A stretch of 22,197 nt of DNA from IMG/VR virus record IMGVR_UViG_3300025771_003749, positions 1 through 22,197 of that record. One strand, written 5' to 3'. Origin of the DNA: a virus. The stretch's first letter is position 1, and each line of letters opens with the position of its first letter. The notes beneath the pieces are model-generated. The model had not been told where the DNA came from and searched no databases. It saw nothing but the letters and a program-made list of their open reading frames with translations. The position numbers and the translations under genes are program-made. Positions 7,645 through 21,130 of this stretch are shown here, piece after piece.

Positions 7645-8349
7645 ATGGAAACAGATTTAAACACTTATGCCTCACAGAAAATTCGCAGCAGAATTGAAAA
7701 AAACGGAGGCAGATATTGGGCCGGTGATAACATCAGCCAGTATATCGAAGAAGGTGAGCGTGATGAGCTTATCAACGAACTTACTATCAAATTTGACGGC
7801 GTGCTAAACAGCCTTGTAATTGATACTGATACAGATCCTAATTCAATGGACACCGCAAAGCGTCTTGCGAAAATGTATATTAATGAATTGATGAGCGGAA
7901 GGTATGATCCAATGCCCAACGCTACAGCATTTCCTAATCATACAGATGATCGATATGATGGTATGTTGGTTGTTCGCAGTGAACTTACAAGCATGTGTTC
8001 ACATCATCACCAAACTGTTAAAGGTGTAGCATACATTGGTATCATTGCTGCTGATACACTTATTGGACTTAGCAAATACACACGTATTGCCCAATGGTGT
8101 GCTAGACGTGGAACACTACAAGAAGAACTTGCTATGGATATTGCCAAGGAAATTATGGCAGCAACTGGCAGCAACGATGTTGCTGTTTATATCCAAGCTA
8201 CTCATGGTTGTTGCGAGAATCGTGGTATTCAAGCACACAGCAGTCTTACACAAACAACTGTGCTAAAAGGTTGTTTCAAGTCAGATGATGCTGTTAAAAA
8301 AGAGTTCATGGATAATATTAAATTACAACAAGGATACTCACCGCGATGA
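7645..8349 (+). CDS. folE: GTP cyclohydrolase I
   Basis: This 234-residue protein has the catalytic core of GTP cyclohydrolase I. C118-SH-H121 followed by H187-G-C189 (THGCCENRG) supplies the zinc ligands and catalytic His. LIGLSKYTRIAQWCARRGTLQEEL (139-162) is the signature helix region. The enzyme turns GTP into 7,8-dihydroneopterin triphosphate, the first step both for folate and for the 7-deazaguanines preQ0/preQ1. The queE start overlaps its stop by ATGA, which points to the deazaguanine route. QueD and QueC are not in this window. The start is ATG 7645 with CGGAGA upstream, and the gene is driven by a sigma70-like promoter. Confidence 0.9.
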   Translation: METDLNTYASQKIRSRIEKNGGRYWAGDNISQYIEEGERDELINELTIKFDGVLNSLVIDTDTDPNSMDTAKRLAKMYINELMSGRYDPMPNATAFPNHTDDRYDGMLVVRSELTSMCSHHHQTVKGVAYIGIIAADTLIGLSKYTRIAQWCARRGTLQEELAMDIAKEIMAATGSNDVAVYIQATHGCCENRGIQAHSSLTQTTVLKGCFKSDDAVKKEFMDNIKLQQGYSPR

Positions 8350-9242
8350 AATTAAGATATAGTGAAGCTTTTTATAGTGTTCAAGGCGAAGGTAAATTTG
8401 TAGGAGTGCCAAGTGTATTCCTACGCACCTTCGGTTGTAACTTTCGTTGTATGAACTTTGGCGTTGATAAAAGTGTTGGCAGTCGTTGGGAGCAACACGC
8501 AAAAGGTCAACGTTACAATGCTGAGGTAAAGCAACTGTTGGATGATGGTGTTCACGAAACTACAAAAGAGTTTAATGACCTGCCTATTGTCCATACTGGC
8601 TGCGATACATATGCAAGTATCTATCCAGAATTTAAACACTTCAATATGCTTAAAAGCGTAGATGAAGTTGTAGAACACTTGCTTAGTTTGTTACCAGAAG
8701 GCAAATGGACTATGGATAACGGACAAGACGTTCATCTTATTCTCACAGGCGGAGAGCCACTACTTGCTTGGCAACGGTTGTATGTCGAGCTATTTGAACA
8801 CCCAGGTATGCAGGATCTTAAAAATGTCACAATCGAAACCAACACTACACAGCATCTACACGATGACTTCTACAACTATCTCAACGGTCACGAAAGAATT
8901 CAGCTCACTTTTAGCTGTTCTCCCAAACTATCCGTATCGGGCGAGTCTTGGGATGATGCTATTAAGCCTGATGTTGCTCGTGAGTATTCCCTTGTTGATG
9001 GCGCTGATATGTATTTTAAGTTTGTTGTTGCTGATCAGAGTGATGTTGACGAAGTTGGTAGAGCAGTTGATACCTATCGTAAAGCGGGCGTGGACGTTCC
9101 TGTATATCTCATGCCGCTTGGGGGTAGGTCGGAAGAATACACTCTCAACGTTCAAGAGGTGGCGAACCTCTGTATGGAACGAGGGTGGCGGTTCTCGCCA
9201 AGACTCCATATTAGCCTATTCGGAAATGCCTGGGGCACTTAA
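8346..9242 (+). CDS. queE: 7-carboxy-7-deazaguanine synthase with split cluster motif
   Basis: This 298-residue protein is QueE-like: YSVQGEGKFVGVPSVFLR at 10-27, TGGEPLL at 134-140, and the C-terminal LFGNAWGT of the family. QueE converts 6-carboxy-tetrahydropterin to CDG, the ring-contracting step to preQ0. The usual CxxxCxxC-DT motif is interrupted. C31-x3-C35 is followed by MNFG, and the third cysteine appears after a 50-residue insertion as T-G-C86-D-T. I interpret C86 as the missing cluster ligand. The insert 36-85 is polar and charged. Coupling to folE supports the assignment. Product use (modified phage DNA or tRNA) is inferred. Confidence 0.85.
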   Translation: MKLRYSEAFYSVQGEGKFVGVPSVFLRTFGCNFRCMNFGVDKSVGSRWEQHAKGQRYNAEVKQLLDDGVHETTKEFNDLPIVHTGCDTYASIYPEFKHFNMLKSVDEVVEHLLSLLPEGKWTMDNGQDVHLILTGGEPLLAWQRLYVELFEHPGMQDLKNVTIETNTTQHLHDDFYNYLNGHERIQLTFSCSPKLSVSGESWDDAIKPDVAREYSLVDGADMYFKFVVADQSDVDEVGRAVDTYRKAGVDVPVYLMPLGGRSEEYTLNVQEVANLCMERGWRFSPRLHISLFGNAWGT

Positions 9243-9924: not shown

Positions 9925-10115
9925 AAGTTGCTAAAAATATGATCCTTATTAAAGGAGATCATAGTATGGCCTTTAGTGTAAGACGCCGTAAGGAGTCAGT
10001 TGAGATTGATTACTACAAAGACACATACAAATATTTGTCTCAAAAATTATCACTTGACGAAGGAAGTATTTTATATTATAATGCTATTGAATCAGGCTAC
10101 AAAGAGGCATTCTAA
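9921..10115 (+). CDS. Small hypothetical protein with two possible starts
   Basis: This gene encodes 64 residues from ATG 9921, which overlaps the previous stop as ATGA with GAGG upstream. A second in-frame ATG at 9966 has a much stronger AAAGGAG at 9951-9957 and would give 49 residues (MAFSVRRRKES...). The longer form adds a short hydrophobic/basic leader, MKVAKNMILIKGD. The conserved-looking part (SVEIDYYKDTYKYLSQKLSL) is present in both. Its stop shares one base with the RNase H start (TAATG). Confidence 0.65.
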   Translation: MKVAKNMILIKGDHSMAFSVRRRKESVEIDYYKDTYKYLSQKLSLDEGSILYYNAIESGYKEAF

Positions 10116-11101: not shown

Positions 11102-11564
11102 AGCTAATCCTATTTTGCAAGACAAATTTTGGATTGTAGAGGAACAAGGAGAAAAGGTAGGAACACTCACTAAAAATGATGATGGATATATTTTTAGTAA
11201 GAAAGGCAAGATAAGTTTTTTTCAATCAGCAAAAGAAATTAATAATGAGTTTGGTAAAAATTTTCTTACTGCTAAAATTACCACACCCGACGATAATAAA
11301 GAATTAAGTGTCCATGGATATCCTACACGTAGCACACCGTTCAATAGCATGTATGACATCCAAAGAAAACTTCCATTGTTTACTAAAAGTGAAAAAAGTA
11401 AAAGCATTTATTGTGCTGGATTTTATCTAATACGATTTAATGTTAACTGGCTTAAAAGTTTTTGTCCTAAATTAATTACAGTTGAAGAAAATGATTATAT
11501 GGGTCCATACAAAACTGAAATCGAAATGAAACTAGCACTTAGCAATGTCAAACGATCCCATTAA
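11091..11564 (+). CDS. Conserved phage hypothetical protein
   Basis: This gene encodes 157 residues from ATG 11091, which has GCGAGG upstream and gives the short overlap with RNase H seen elsewhere. The same frame is open to 11016, but that part lies inside RNase H. Blocks such as HGYPTRSTPFNSMYDIQRKL and YCAGFYLIRFNVNWLKSFCP look conserved and resemble proteins of marine T4-like phages, of unknown role. There is no signal peptide or membrane span. Confidence 0.7.
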   Translation: MSIKANPILQDKFWIVEEQGEKVGTLTKNDDGYIFSKKGKISFFQSAKEINNEFGKNFLTAKITTPDDNKELSVHGYPTRSTPFNSMYDIQRKLPLFTKSEKSKSIYCAGFYLIRFNVNWLKSFCPKLITVEENDYMGPYKTEIEMKLALSNVKRSH

Positions 11565-11790
11565 TACCGGCCCCATACAAGCATTTATAAAACAAGTTCA
11601 AGCTGCTGAAAACAGTCGTGCAAAAGAAGTTCGCATGGATATTACACAAGCTAAAAACCTTTCATTTACATTAGGCATAGTAATGAGTAGATTACATGGC
11701 GATCTTGAAAAATTTGTGAAAGAAAATGCCGGCGGTGGGTCTGATGAAATCATACAAGTGCAAATTGGTAGCACTGGTGAATGGCAATAA
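11545..11790 (+). CDS. Small conserved phage protein
   Basis: This gene encodes 81 residues: NTGPIQAFIKQVQAAENSRAKEV, a basic/helical centre with TLGIVMSRLHGDLEKFV, then a Gly-rich turn and a short tail. It is mostly helical, with no identified fold. The start at 11545 overlaps the upstream gene by 20 bases and has no strong ribosome-binding site, so it may depend on coupling. It is the last gene before the late promoter-like element at 11805. Confidence 0.65.
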   Translation: MSNDPINTGPIQAFIKQVQAAENSRAKEVRMDITQAKNLSFTLGIVMSRLHGDLEKFVKENAGGGSDEIIQVQIGSTGEWQ

Positions 11791-11804: not shown

Positions 11805-11813
11805 TGATAAATA
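11805..11813 (+). promoter_or_regulatory. T4-like late promoter element (TGATAAATA)
   Basis: TGATAAATA resembles the T4 late -10 octamer TATAAATA with G in its first position. It sits in the short intergenic gap before the gene at 11841. By the T4 geometry, transcription would start near 11819, inside the left arm of the hairpin described at 11813-11842. The identical nonamer occurs at 16611-16619 before the fibre gene. Confidence 0.5.
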
Positions 11814-11842
11814 TATGCGTATATAACTAAGGATACGCATAT
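11813..11842 (+). promoter_or_regulatory. Start-codon-masking hairpin
   Basis: ATATGCGTAT (11813-11822) and ATACGCATAT (11833-11842) are a perfect 10-base inverted repeat with a 10-base loop, plus one possible G-U pair outside. The loop holds the ribosome-binding site AAGG, and the right arm contains the first two bases of the start codon at 11841. In a long read-through RNA this would block initiation. An RNA starting at the overlapping late promoter would lose most of the left arm. Confidence 0.7.
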
Positions 11843-12122
11843 GAGTAGACCAAAGCCAATTGTTTTATGTGAATTTGTTGATGGTAAAACCTACAAAAGT
11901 GAGCAAGTGCTCGATGCCGAAGCCATATGGGCAGTATTCTACAAAGACAAACCTTTCAACTTAAAATCTCAAAATAAACTTACAAACTATCCTGGACCAA
12001 AATATAAAAAAACAAGTTTTTCAAATCCAGGACACGCAAAAAATCTAGCCAAAAAGTTAAACCAAATATTTAAAACTGACGAATTCAGTGTTTACAAATT
12101 AACCGCAGGCGAAAAAATGTAA
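11841..12122 (+). CDS. Conserved phage protein, probably late-expressed
   Basis: This gene encodes 93 residues, basic, with blocks SEQVLDAEAIWAVFYKDKPF and YPGPKYKKTSFSNPGHAKNL that I associate with conserved unknowns of marine T4-like phages. There is no domain of known function. It is the first gene after a TGATAAATA element, and its start codon lies in a hairpin, so it is probably translated mainly from late transcripts. Its stop abuts the next start (TAA then ATG). Confidence 0.75.
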   Translation: MSRPKPIVLCEFVDGKTYKSEQVLDAEAIWAVFYKDKPFNLKSQNKLTNYPGPKYKKTSFSNPGHAKNLAKKLNQIFKTDEFSVYKLTAGEKM

Positions 12123-12515
12123 ATGAATAAACGTGTATTTACAAAACTTTTTCTAAAACAGTTAAACAAAGCAACCAGTGATGAAAATGTTGCACAATAT
12201 ATGCACATTTGGTGGCAAAACACAAGAGAAAAAAATGTTGGAGGGTTACGTCTTACAGAAGCAGGATTTGATATGTTATCTGAAATAGATCTAACATCGT
12301 ATCATATACCGTATCCTCCTGATATGCCCTTGACTACACAAGTAATTATATTTTTAGACCAATTTATTGATTGTCCATACTACTTAACAAACAAAGGTAT
12401 TCACGTCACAAATGAAAAGAAAGCTGTTGAACTTACACTTTTCAGTGGAGACTTACGTAAGTATGGTATTACAAAAGCAATGAAAAGATCAGAAAATCTT
12501 CAAAATAACGGTTGA
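12123..12515 (+). CDS. Conserved phage hypothetical protein
   Basis: This gene encodes 130 residues and starts immediately after the previous stop. Its blocks include WWQNTREKNVGGLRLTEAGF, YHIPYPPDM and YYLTNKGIHVTNEKKAVEL, with a GGLRLTEAGF...LTNKGIHV layout like a small winged-helix or DNA-associated fold, but this is only a resemblance. No ribosome-binding site of strength is visible, so coupling is likely. The downstream promoter overlaps its last codons. Confidence 0.65.
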   Translation: MNKRVFTKLFLKQLNKATSDENVAQYMHIWWQNTREKNVGGLRLTEAGFDMLSEIDLTSYHIPYPPDMPLTTQVIIFLDQFIDCPYYLTNKGIHVTNEKKAVELTLFSGDLRKYGITKAMKRSENLQNNG

Positions 12516-16602: not shown

Positions 16603-16644
16603 CTCTTAGGTGATAAATACTTATAAGAACATATCACCTAGGAG
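16603..16644 (+). promoter_or_regulatory. Shine-Dalgarno-masking hairpin overlapping the late promoter
   Basis: CTCTTAGGTGATA (16603-16615) pairs with TATCACCTAGGAG (16632-16644) over 13 base pairs with a single G-U pair and a 16-base loop. The right arm contains the ribosome-binding site TAGGAG of the fibre gene. The left arm overlaps the TGATAAATA element. RNA starting about 16625 would lack the whole left arm and leave the site free. Confidence 0.75.
16611..16619 (+). promoter_or_regulatory. T4-like late promoter element (TGATAAATA)
   Basis: The same nonamer as at 11805-11813, 32 bases before the fibre-gene start. It resembles the T4 late octamer TATAAATA except for its first base. By T4 spacing the transcript would begin near 16625. 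Its position before the virion genes supports late control. Confidence 0.55.
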
Positions 16645-16650
16645 ATTCAT

Positions 16651-18210
16651 ATGGCATTACAGCTACGTCGTGGAACTAATGCAGAAAGAGCGACAGAAAC
16701 GTTTGCAGCGGGCGAACTTGTCTATACAACAGATACAAAACAACTTTATATCGGTGACGGCTCTACAGTCGGCGGTATACTAGTATCAAACAGTGTTGCA
16801 AGCTCTCCAGCAAATCTTACACAAAATTTAAATTTAAACGGATTTAATATTTCAGGAACAGGAAATATTACAGCAACCGCATTTGTCGGTGACGGTAGCG
16901 GACTAACAAATCTACCAGATACGGGCGGATCTGGAACTGGAGTTATCGAAGGCCAAGAGTATGCTATTGACATCCAAGGTAGTGTTAGAGGTGATGACAC
17001 AACTTTAATTGTTGATAGTGCATTAGGCAGAGTAAGTGCAGATCTATACGGCGATGGTAGTAATATTACTAACATTACACTAGACCAATTATCAGATGTT
17101 GATACAACAGGTATTTTTACAAACGCTATACTAAAATGGGATGGCGCAGCTTGGACAATAGCCAGCGACGAAACAGGCGGCGGTGTAGGAGGTACAGGTA
17201 TCCTCGAAGGCCAAACATATTTTATTAGTATTACAGGTGATGTAGTAGCAGATGATTCATCTATAATAGTTGACTCATTCAACAAAACATTTAGAGGCTC
17301 ATTAGACGGTGAACTTCGCGGTAGTGTATTTGCAGAAAGTTCGACGTTATTGGTAGATGCAATAAACAGCGTAATTGTTGGTGAAGTTGATTCGCCTTCA
17401 GTAACTGCTGAAATACTAGTAGCAGAAGACCAAACTAATCCTCAAATTGATGTTAAAAAATCATCCACTGGAGATATGAGCGCCTATACAGGTAAGTTAG
17501 GTGAAATTATATTTAAAACTAGGGGCAGTGATGGTGATAAAAGCTATGGAATTATACAAGGATATACAAGTGGTATTATTATTGGAACCAATGATAATGG
17601 CGTAGACTTTCCTGCAGAGACATTAAACACCATAGGCAAAACTGGAGTTGCATTGGGTGGAATTAATCCTGCAGCAAGATTAGATGTTAGAGGCAATGCT
17701 ATCATACTTGAAGAAGTAAAAATTGGTTCATTTACAACTGCTGAGCGCAATGATTTGACAGCAGCAAACGGTATGTTATTATACAATGCAGATACTAATG
17801 AGTTCCAAGCATATGAAAACGGCGGCTGGACTGCAATGATCTCTGACTTAGGTAATATTACATTTGCTGGTAGTGTAATTGATACTAGTGATAGTAGTGG
17901 AATCACAGTAACACCAGCTGTCACACTGAGCAGTGATTTAACAGTAGAAAACAATTTAACAGTAACAGGCAGTGTTACAGCAGATAAATTCATATCCACT
18001 GGCACTGAAACACCTGAAATTAGCGCAAGTGCTAACTTAAACTTAACAGCAGGAAATGCTGTTGTGGTAACAAGTTCACCACTACGTATGGCAAGTTTTA
18101 CTACAACAGAAAGAAACGCATTAGCAGCCCAAAACGGCGACATTATATACAATACAACGGATAACAAATTCCAAGGTTATGAAAACGGTGCATGGGCTAA
18201 CTTAATCTAA
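16651..18210 (+). CDS. Modular tail-fibre-like structural protein
   Basis: This 519-residue protein begins MALQLRRGTNAERATETFAA and continues to DTKQLYIGDGST, the N-terminal motif common on phage fibres and tropism proteins. The middle carries fibre-like GDGSGLTN and GDGSNITN turns and two related modules starting GTGVIEGQEYAIDIQGSV and GTGILEGQTYFISITGDV. The C-terminal third contains a 40-residue module twice: 358-397 (IGSFTTAERNDLTAANG...) and 480-519 (MASFTTTERNALAAQNG...). The composition is Ser/Thr/Asn/Gly-rich, with no catalytic domain and little Cys. Host receptor binding or an adjoining fibre segment is likely. It sits behind a late promoter-like element. Confidence 0.8.
   Translation: MALQLRRGTNAERATETFAAGELVYTTDTKQLYIGDGSTVGGILVSNSVASSPANLTQNLNLNGFNISGTGNITATAFVGDGSGLTNLPDTGGSGTGVIEGQEYAIDIQGSVRGDDTTLIVDSALGRVSADLYGDGSNITNITLDQLSDVDTTGIFTNAILKWDGAAWTIASDETGGGVGGTGILEGQTYFISITGDVVADDSSIIVDSFNKTFRGSLDGELRGSVFAESSTLLVDAINSVIVGEVDSPSVTAEILVAEDQTNPQIDVKKSSTGDMSAYTGKLGEIIFKTRGSDGDKSYGIIQGYTSGIIIGTNDNGVDFPAETLNTIGKTGVALGGINPAARLDVRGNAIILEEVKIGSFTTAERNDLTAANGMLLYNADTNEFQAYENGGWTAMISDLGNITFAGSVIDTSDSSGITVTPAVTLSSDLTVENNLTVTGSVTADKFISTGTETPEISASANLNLTAGNAVVVTSSPLRMASFTTTERNALAAQNGDIIYNTTDNKFQGYENGAWANLI
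17722..17841 (+). repeat. Fibre C-terminal module, copy 1
   Basis: Encodes residues 358-397. The pattern is (I/M)-(G/A)-SFTT-x-ERN, then NG, YN, T/DN and F, then YENG-x-W. It matches copy 2 at 18088-18207 by protein, with more drift at the DNA level. Confidence 0.7.
18088..18207 (+). repeat. Fibre C-terminal module, copy 2
   Basis: Encodes residues 480-519, the very C-terminus of the fibre-like protein, repeating the module of 17722-17841 (SFTTTERN, NTTDNKFQGYENGAW). Confidence 0.7.
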
Positions 18211-18220
18211 GGGGGCTTAA

Positions 18221-21130
18221 ATGAGCGAAAAAGAATATATTGTCACACTAGAAGCAGGTGTTGACTACGATGCATTCAATGCAGAAATGATTGCAAACAC
18301 GGGTGCAGGAGATATTCCTAATCGCACAGTTGCAGTAGCAAACGCAAGACCATTGAGTCAGCGTAACACACATTACAGTTTGACTGACGAAGAAGCTGTT
18401 GCGTTACGTAATGACAGTAGAGTTGTAGATGTTCAAATTCCACCAGAACTTAGAGACGATATTGAAATCGGCTTTAATGCTTATCAAAGTGGTGTATGGA
18501 CACGAGACACAGTTACACAGCAATCAAATTTAAATTGGGGTAATCTTCGTTGCACAAAAGTAAATGATCCATGGAATGGAAATACACTTACTGATATCAG
18601 CGACAACTACAAATACACTCTAACAGGTAAAGGTGTAGATGTTGTAATTCAAGACAGTGGTATACAACCAACTCATTGGCAGTTTACAAATATTAATTAC
18701 GATCCAAATAATATGTACAACAAAGGTCCACTGACATCTGATAATACAAACGGAGCAGTTTTTGACAGATCTATACAAGTAAAAGGTGTTAAAATTGTTT
18801 TAGCTGGAGCAGTTGGTGGAGCAACCACAGTTCCTGATGAATGGGGCAATAAAGTTGCGCAGATGTATAATTGGTTCCTTGATCCAACAGCAGCAAATGT
18901 TTCACCGCCAATCCAAGAAAAGTTTATACTTACACTTAGAGGTGATGCTGAAGTTAGCTGGCACCAAGGCAAACAAACAGCACAACGTGTTGGCTACGGC
19001 GGCGGTGATTCATATGATCCAAACTGGTTAACAGACGACGGAGCAGCACAGTATGCCGGTTATGTTAACTTTTTAGATAGTCATGAGATGAATGATATGG
19101 TATGGTATCAAAACAGCAGTGGCACGCCAGGAACTGGTGACATTGATGCTCAAGAAGTTATCGAACACATATTTCATACACTACACATGCACGGACTGCC
19201 AGCGCAAGACTTAAAATTGTATGCTTACTTAGCAGCTGATTGGCAAAGTGGCGAGCTATTCGCAGCAATGGAAGAAGCATTTGACGCAAGCAAATGGGAT
19301 CCATCAGGTTATCAAAGTCCAGCAAATGCTTGGAAAACTGACTCAGACGCATTTGAAGTAGCAGCAAAAGAATACTTGTATCTACTAAACTTTTGTATGT
19401 TTGATTATTCAAGTTTATGGGATGGCGGTAGTCTTGCTCCTGAATGGACAGACGATGTTAGAACACCAGCACAAATTGAATCAACACTTCCGTTAGGTTA
19501 TGCGTTATTTAAAAAGTATATCGAACCATGTATTGCTAAAGTTTCTAAAAGAGCTATACAGAGTTTATTCCGTGACGGAGACACAGGCAATCCATTTGAT
19601 GCAGGACACTCAGGATATTCACCAGATGTACTAAGCAGAGTGCAACAAATAGATTGGTACGCTCACAGTGGTATAAGCGGCACACAAAGCGCCAATCACT
19701 ATAGAGACTATAACGGACACGGATCACACTGTGCTGGCACCGTAGCAGGTCGCACATTGGGCTGGGCACGTGAAGCAAACATATATTCTGTAAAAGTTAA
19801 TGGCTTAGAAGGTTCAGGCGATAGTGGAACTGGTATCAGTATAACAAATTGCTTTGATGTTATCAAAGGCTGGCACAACAACAAGCCATTAGACCCTAAG
19901 ACTGGATTTAAGCGTCCTACAGTGGTCAATGCTAGTTGGGGATATAGCGGAACTAGATCAGGAACATTAACCGGCGGTGTTTATAATGGACAAAGTTGGA
20001 GCACAGGAGCAGGTCAACCTTGGCCAGATACTGAAGCAAGTCATTTGGAATATGCAGGCATTCACGGAAAGTATTACTCATTAGGCCTTTCAAGACGCAT
20101 TAACGTAAGAGTTGCAAGCGTTGATGCAGACTTACAAGAATGTATAGATGCTGGTGTTATTTTCTGTATTGCAGCAGGAAACAGCTATTACTACATCGAT
20201 AGTGCAACTGGACCAAATTGGAACGACACTGCGAATTTTGGTTTAGGGCAGGAAAATATTTTTAGAGGTAGTTCTCCATATGATACAGAAGCATTTATGG
20301 TAGGAAACATTGATAATACTTACTACTTAGGTAAAGAACAAAAAGCAGAATCAAGTTGTTTTGGCCCAGGTGTAGATATAAATGCACCTGGGACGTATAT
20401 TATGAGTTGTGCAAGTAGTGACAAAAGCGGAGCATGTGATTTAACCGATGGCACTGACGGTAGTGTTACTACTGTTAACGACCCAGGGTCAAATAGCGCA
20501 AGTGATCCTTTAATGAAAATATCAGGCACAAGTATGGCTTCACCACAGGTTGCTGGCATGGTTGCTTGTATACTACAAGCAAATCCTGGAATGACTCCTG
20601 CACAAATGAAAACATATATCCACAACAATAGTTTACAAGATTTGCTTTGGGAAGATACAAATCACACCATAGTAGCAGATACATTTACAGCTTCTACCAC
20701 TGTTGCAAATGGCACAACTGATTATACTTTTACAGCTGGCACAGATAGGATTGGTGCTGTCAGCGGAAACGATCCAACTATTACTATCTATCAAGGTGAC
20801 ACTATTGAAATTACAAATAGTATAGGCGCTCATCCTTTATATATTAAAACTGTCTCAGGTGTTGCAGATACAGCCAACCAAGTAACAACACCAGCAGCAA
20901 CAGGACAGGGTGCTACAAATGGCACTGTTAGTTGGACACCTGCACTTCCAGGAAGATTTTACTATCAGTGTAGTTCTCATGCAGACATGTGGGGTCAGAT
21001 AGAAGTATTACCAAGAGTAGATTGGAATAATACTGACAACATAGGAGACGGTCCTAATAGGTATCTTTATTCACCATTGTTTAGCACAGGTGATAATATA
21101 CAGTATAAAGGTCCTATTTCAAGAACTTAA
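18221..21130 (+). CDS. Subtilisin-like (S8) protease with large insert and cupredoxin-like C-terminus
   Basis: This 969-residue protein has a complete subtilase triad: D145 (VIQDSGIQ), H500 (NGHGSHCAG) and S771 (GTSMASP), with oxyanion N654 (AAGNS). About 355 residues separate Asp and His instead of the usual 30-40. The insert holds an unidentified, partly helical region with a His cluster (HIFHTLHMHG, 316-325). Residues 1-90 may be a propeptide-like domain. The C-terminal region (815-930) looks like a type-1 copper cupredoxin: H871, then C917-x2-H920-x2-M923 in YYQCSSHADMWG, with amicyanin-like spacing. The ribosome-binding site AAGGGGG is strong. It follows the fibre gene, so a virion-associated protease is likely. 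There is no signal peptide. Confidence 0.85.
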   Translation: MSEKEYIVTLEAGVDYDAFNAEMIANTGAGDIPNRTVAVANARPLSQRNTHYSLTDEEAVALRNDSRVVDVQIPPELRDDIEIGFNAYQSGVWTRDTVTQQSNLNWGNLRCTKVNDPWNGNTLTDISDNYKYTLTGKGVDVVIQDSGIQPTHWQFTNINYDPNNMYNKGPLTSDNTNGAVFDRSIQVKGVKIVLAGAVGGATTVPDEWGNKVAQMYNWFLDPTAANVSPPIQEKFILTLRGDAEVSWHQGKQTAQRVGYGGGDSYDPNWLTDDGAAQYAGYVNFLDSHEMNDMVWYQNSSGTPGTGDIDAQEVIEHIFHTLHMHGLPAQDLKLYAYLAADWQSGELFAAMEEAFDASKWDPSGYQSPANAWKTDSDAFEVAAKEYLYLLNFCMFDYSSLWDGGSLAPEWTDDVRTPAQIESTLPLGYALFKKYIEPCIAKVSKRAIQSLFRDGDTGNPFDAGHSGYSPDVLSRVQQIDWYAHSGISGTQSANHYRDYNGHGSHCAGTVAGRTLGWAREANIYSVKVNGLEGSGDSGTGISITNCFDVIKGWHNNKPLDPKTGFKRPTVVNASWGYSGTRSGTLTGGVYNGQSWSTGAGQPWPDTEASHLEYAGIHGKYYSLGLSRRINVRVASVDADLQECIDAGVIFCIAAGNSYYYIDSATGPNWNDTANFGLGQENIFRGSSPYDTEAFMVGNIDNTYYLGKEQKAESSCFGPGVDINAPGTYIMSCASSDKSGACDLTDGTDGSVTTVNDPGSNSASDPLMKISGTSMASPQVAGMVACILQANPGMTPAQMKTYIHNNSLQDLLWEDTNHTIVADTFTASTTVANGTTDYTFTAGTDRIGAVSGNDPTITIYQGDTIEITNSIGAHPLYIKTVSGVADTANQVTTPAATGQGATNGTVSWTPALPGRFYYQCSSHADMWGQIEVLPRVDWNNTDNIGDGPNRYLYSPLFSTGDNIQYKGPISRT

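Follow-up and report, generated by a model that had tools for sequence, protein, structure and literature searches.

The 11841 gene, its neighbourhood and two start-site hairpins

The analysed DNA (hereafter the window) is a stretch of 22,197 nucleotides from a virus (IMG/VR record IMGVR_UViG_3300025771_003749), and it carries, at positions 11841-12122 of the plus strand, a conserved gene coding for a protein of 93 amino acids. This protein is 50-66% identical to homologues from the jumbo phages PA5oct, Phosso, Atu_ph07 and SCTP-2, all annotated as hypothetical proteins, and has at least several hundred relatives in IMG/VR. No PHROG or Pfam family matches it, and its confident AlphaFold2 model (pLDDT 88.9) gave no informative match against the PDB and viral structures, where the hits were limited to two phage proteins, both uncharacterized. 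The next gene (12123-12515, +; phrog_15638) begins directly past the stop codon of the 11841 gene and is probably carried on the same late RNA. Upstream, a codirectional gene (11545-11790, +) lies 50 nt before the putative switch, so that read-through RNA would carry the whole hairpin described below. Early read-through across 11841 is plausible, because the genes are codirectional, no terminator-like site was found on the plus strand between 9800 and 12700, and a sigma70-like promoter (TTGACG-17-TATAAT, 11 of 12 positions; 10054-10082, +), a candidate source identified by consensus match only, is present. Further upstream (7645-9242, +) there are genes resembling those of 7-deazaguanine synthesis, and the matching neighbourhood of PA5oct contains an annotated 7-carboxy-7-deazaguanine synthase gene, which suggests that phage DNA or tRNA may be modified.

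Ahead of the 11841 gene, TGATAAATA (11805-11813) includes the T4-type late promoter GATAAATA (11806-11813, +), located 35 nt before the ATG, and the last base of GATAAATA is the first base of a 10-bp inverted repeat. This repeat, read directly and recovered by a repeat search, is composed of a 5' arm, ATATGCGTAT (11813-11822, +), a loop of 10 nt, ATAACTAAGG (11823-11832, +), and a 3' arm, ATACGCATAT (11833-11842, +), the two arms being complementary at 10 of 10 positions. The Shine-Dalgarno sequence TAAGGA (11828-11833, +) has its TAAGG in the loop, and the start codon (11841-11843, +) provides its A and T as the last two bases of the 3' arm. The first-pass annotation had described a late-promoter motif overlapping a perfect 10-base inverted repeat, with the ribosome-binding site in the loop, the start codon in the stem and only four of the ten left-arm bases (11819-11822) left in a transcript started at 11819, and its description is exact on each of these points. 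An intrinsic terminator at 11813-11842 was also considered and discarded, since no terminator-like site was called there and no run of T follows the stem.

The hairpin is the sole perfect 10-bp inverted repeat with a loop of 3-20 nt in the window. Shuffled versions of the whole window contained between zero and three such repeats, mostly none, and local shuffles of 60 nt yielded one in 12 of 5000 cases. Taken alone, the 11841 hairpin is only moderately improbable, and it is the comparison with relatives that makes the case.

A second site of the same design precedes a gene coding for a protein of 519 amino acids (16651-18210, +), which by domain match has an N-terminal Mtd_N domain and is a fibre-like structural protein. 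Here TGATAAATA starts at 16611 and GATAAATA occupies 16612-16619 (+), with a predicted +1 at 16625. The 5' arm, CTCTTAGGTGATA (16603-16615, +), shares bases with the promoter and ends before this +1, and the 3' arm, TATCACCTAGGAG (16632-16644, +), contains the Shine-Dalgarno sequence. The window thus contains TGATAAATA at 11805 and 16611 only, each time overlapping with a start-site hairpin. Near these structural genes there is also an ORF of 969 amino acids (18221-21130, +) whose translation shows the subtilisin-like motifs GHGSHCAGT and GTSMASPQVAG.

Late promoters and probable late transcript starts in related phages

Late promoters of this type are already known, as TATAAATA in T4 and as NATAAATA in cyanophages (PMC2988020, PMC2984593). 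The looser form TATAAATA is uninformative in the window, because with one mismatch it is found 60 times versus 54 expected by chance, and only GATAAATA carries information. That this is a T4-style late promoter, as had been proposed from the letters alone, is supported by the conservation of the upstream region and by the long relatives, where GATAAATA is often strand-biased and lies 12-64 nt before ORFs, the genes behind it coding for tail tube, tail fibre, head-tail adaptor, neck and virion structural proteins. A gp55-type late sigma (phrog_234, phrog_12791) is encoded by 12 of the 13 long relatives, whereas the 275-kb G001 record yielded none and none was seen in the 22-kb window, itself a fragment; the link to a late sigma holds at the level of the group, from the long relatives and not from the window.

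The position of the late transcript start can be approached through ATG codons. Across the loci, counted from the G of GATAAATA, seven ORF-opening ATGs have an offset of 13 and none has one of 12 or 14-16, a cluster not seen with permuted motifs. In the 11 long marine records, a spacer of 5 is found in 39 of the 94 ATAAATA...ATG pairs whose spacers fall within 1-12 (p about 3e-18 against a uniform distribution), a count in which ATGs were taken regardless of ORF context and to which partly related records contribute; in PA5oct this spacer occurs in 8 of 24 pairs. The simplest reading is that the offset-13 AUGs are probably the +1 of leaderless late mRNAs, and therefore they would place the +1 of the window, independently, at 11819 (+), 13 nt from the G of GATAAATA. 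The first-pass annotation had arrived at the same position from T4 late geometry, and the T4 late spacing (PMC2988020) agrees with it.

The seven candidate genes, which lack a Shine-Dalgarno sequence and whose ATG follows the G of GATAAATA at exactly 13 nt, are L091:19475-19816 (-), L094:9311-10432 (-), L095:11104-11535 (+), L097:4204-4503 (-), L099:14964-16001 (-), L111:8507-8866 (-) and L111:5042-5227 (-); genes for the tail tube, a tail fibre-like protein and virion structural proteins are among them. They provide evidence for probably widespread leaderless late mRNAs in the jumbo/marine myophage group. The hairpin layout of 11841 recurs at L099:13638-14138 (-), which corresponds to G001 near 254172, in front of a gene weakly similar to the terminase small subunit: the late promoter is followed by TAGTAGC, whose pairing partner GCTACTA lies at the ATG.

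Conservation, pairing and energetics of the leader

The 305 loci of the 11841 gene family were reduced to 177 distinct upstream regions, of which 170 contain NATAAATA (157 as GATAAATA and 13 as CATAAATA), nearly always 25-45 nt ahead of the ATG. The dominant form of the leader is GATAAATATATRCGTA...AAGGA..ACGYATATG, and its two arms covary. The variable stem pair is GC in 91 cases, AU in 26, GU in 7 and AC in 1; since the relatives are related by descent, these raw counts are not probabilities. In a tree built from 670 nt starting at the 11841-type gene, 15 left-arm and 21 right-arm changes collapse into 22 combined ones; the supported branches offer 8 independent pairs, of which about 7.2 changed jointly and none in opposite directions (median p 0.016). 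The 279-nt gene alone gave a tree with support too weak for this paired-change test, and the 670 nt were used instead. In a register-free control, true arm partners form 6.95 of 8 Watson-Crick pairs versus 6.41 +/- 0.05 when partners are swapped. The alignment itself contains 23 double changes, whereas shuffles gave 10.8 +/- 2.9 and none of 500 reached that number; this count is blurred because MAFFT misaligns the 3' arm in some rows, so the register-free count is preferred.

These data bear on the idea that no regulatory hairpin exists, the left arm being an extended promoter or initially transcribed element, the right arm a favoured spacer between Shine-Dalgarno and AUG, and their complementarity a coincidence. 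The left arm is indeed under stronger conservation than the right one, and the pairing in the window, taken alone, could come from AT-rich DNA; but other late promoters of the same phages lack the left-arm sequence, paired changes occurred in about seven independent lineages and replacement hairpins have arisen convergently, making coincidence improbable.

These replacements are seen in some leaders that lack the common arms and still form other hairpins over the start region. In L225, TCTCCGTAT pairs with ATACGGAGA around a variant of the promoter; in L171, GTTAACTCCT lies ahead of the promoter and AGGAGTTAAC ahead of the ATG; and further unrelated hairpins with the same effect are found in L275, L309, L265, L302 and L017 and in the cultured phages Atu_ph07 and PA5oct. 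Predicted sequestration is absent from the leaders of L280, L318, L299, L303, L006 and SCTP-2. The simplest account is that selection acts on the function and not on one sequence. Conservation together with repeated reinvention therefore suggests strong selection against early making of the 93-aa protein, which probably matters late or is harmful early. The switch appears to have been kept, compensated and reinvented across hundreds of environmental phage contigs, which form an extensive natural collection for the study of a classic mechanism.

Sequences resembling parts of the hairpin occur elsewhere. A degenerate element (about AACTRCGTAGATAACT), similar to the left arm plus loop, is located some 24 nt upstream of GATAAATA in about 50 of 170 leaders (e.g. 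L040, L054 and L046), and AATAAATATATACGTATATAACTTAAAGGAG, again left arm plus loop and without a matching right arm, occurs once before another gene, in L092 at G001:117371 (-). As a genome-wide motif, TRCGYA-N-WTAAY has few copies and no clear excess over a reversed control.

I-TevI is known to repress its own synthesis by binding at its late promoter, and in a comparable way the repeat could be a DNA operator, on which a dimeric phage repressor would occupy two TRCGTA-like half sites over the promoter and start, the RNA hairpin being a by-product. The half-site-like TRCGTA, the element near -24 and the isolated left-arm sequence at G001:117371 would fit such an operator. However, the spacing between arms varies freely among relatives, unrelated leaders retain pairing and lose the motif, the 16651 family has a different sequence, and the excess of G-U (7) over A-C (1) is what pairing of the sense-strand RNA predicts, so the operator, like the coincidence, has a low probability.

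Folding energies point in the same direction as the covariation. The energy needed to open the region from Shine-Dalgarno to AUG has a family median of 9.3 kcal/mol in the long RNA versus 3.2-3.3 in the late RNA. At 11841 in the window, where the comparison with and without the left arm had been put forward as a check on the first-pass proposal and came out as that proposal predicts, the values are 9.6 kcal/mol for the long RNA and 3.8 for the late RNA from 11819, a difference of 5.8. This difference amounts to 6.4 kcal/mol in canonical leaders, 5.1 where the same gene has a non-canonical leader and 6.8 in the 16651 family, whereas other late genes give 1.2 and shuffled 5' leaders 1.6-2.5. The 16651 hairpin, conserved in related sites (17 distinct), is stronger than that of 11841, with 16.4 kcal/mol versus 3.2 and a difference of 13.2. 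T4 e, 49 and I-TevII, used as positive controls, gave differences of the same sign of 12-15 kcal/mol, so that the computed hairpin at 11841 falls short of its T4 counterparts in strength. With shuffled AT-rich 5' leaders as the reference, the site in the window does not reach significance by itself (p about 0.15); the weight of the 11841 case comes from conservation and covariation.

The hairpin could also be a docking site for a protein or a small RNA, or a temperature-responsive structure, with control exerted in trans and not by the promoter. RegA-like translational repressors are present in T4-type phages (PMC3014915) and the loop is partly conserved. On the other hand, the late start regularly coincides with part of the hairpin, a structure that late RNA therefore lacks, the replacement hairpins share no common loop, and the energy gap holds from 10 to 37 C; control in trans is accordingly the least probable of the readings considered. 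All three explain less than a switch coupled to the transcript start, the main reason being that this position repeatedly carries hairpins unrelated to one another.

Proposed switch and its relation to known systems

A start-site-coupled translation switch at 11841, with a second one of the same design at 16651, is very probable on the evidence of the sequence elements, their conservation and covariation, the rebuilt hairpins, the energetics and the sigma gene of the relatives; the actual +1, the early read-through RNA, the early silence and the timing are the parts of the switch that we infer. RNA reading in from upstream early or middle promoters would carry both arms and fold into the hairpin, which would lock away the start signals, the Shine-Dalgarno sequence in the loop and the AUG in the stem, preventing ribosomes from starting. 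Later in infection, a phage sigma of the gp55 type would steer the host RNA polymerase to GATAAATA, and the resulting late RNA would begin at about 11819, inside the 5' arm. The four leftover bases of this arm would be too few for a stem, allowing the late RNA to be translated. The 16651 gene would be governed in the same way.

Tentatively, and with somewhat less than even probability, these hairpins (11841, 16651 and possibly that of the G001 terminase small subunit gene) and the leaderless late mRNAs could be two gates obeying one rule based on the late 5' end. In the leaderless case the AUG would be the +1 base, with no Shine-Dalgarno sequence, and the same AUG would stay untranslated inside early read-through RNA. 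If this is true, the timing of the proteins would be set by the 5' end of the RNA and not by RNA abundance.

This kind of switch is already known. In T4 e, soc, 49 and I-TevI, the read-through RNA folds and is silent and the late RNA lacking the 5' arm is translated (PMC3014915), and the same switch operates in other homing endonucleases (PMC2988022); the first-pass annotation had rightly named e and soc as precedents. Its presence, breadth and covariation in jumbo/marine myophages were not found in the literature searched, and neither were such hairpins anywhere outside the T4 relatives, in a search that covered mostly open-access papers. The late promoters of the cyanomyoviruses S-PM2 and Syn9, NATAAATA, have almost the same core as those of the window, and the available part of their description reports no start-site hairpin (PMC2984593).

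At 16651 the left arm overlaps the late promoter, as it does in I-TevI, I-TevII, SegB and Aeh1 MobE (PMC2988022), I-TevII having the closest T4 geometry; however, those are mobile endonucleases, whereas here one gene codes for a small conserved protein and the other for a structural protein of the fibre-like type. T4 e and soc resemble 11841 in that a long early RNA folds over the start and the RNA of an adjacent late promoter is translated (PMC3014915), but e has two late promoters and a stronger stem that contains the Shine-Dalgarno sequence, and it codes for lysozyme, while the 11841 gene gives no sign of being a lysis gene. The closest T4 geometry to 11841 is that of gene 49, which is listed in PMC3014915 and in which the late promoter is followed at once by the 5' arm, the 3' arm lies by the AUG and the late RNA loses most of the 5' arm; the 11841 site differs in gene and phage group, in its shorter stem and in having the Shine-Dalgarno sequence in the loop. 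The sequence comparison thus supports the assignment of the 11841 switch to the e/soc/49/I-Tev kind of T4, in a distant jumbo/marine myophage group.
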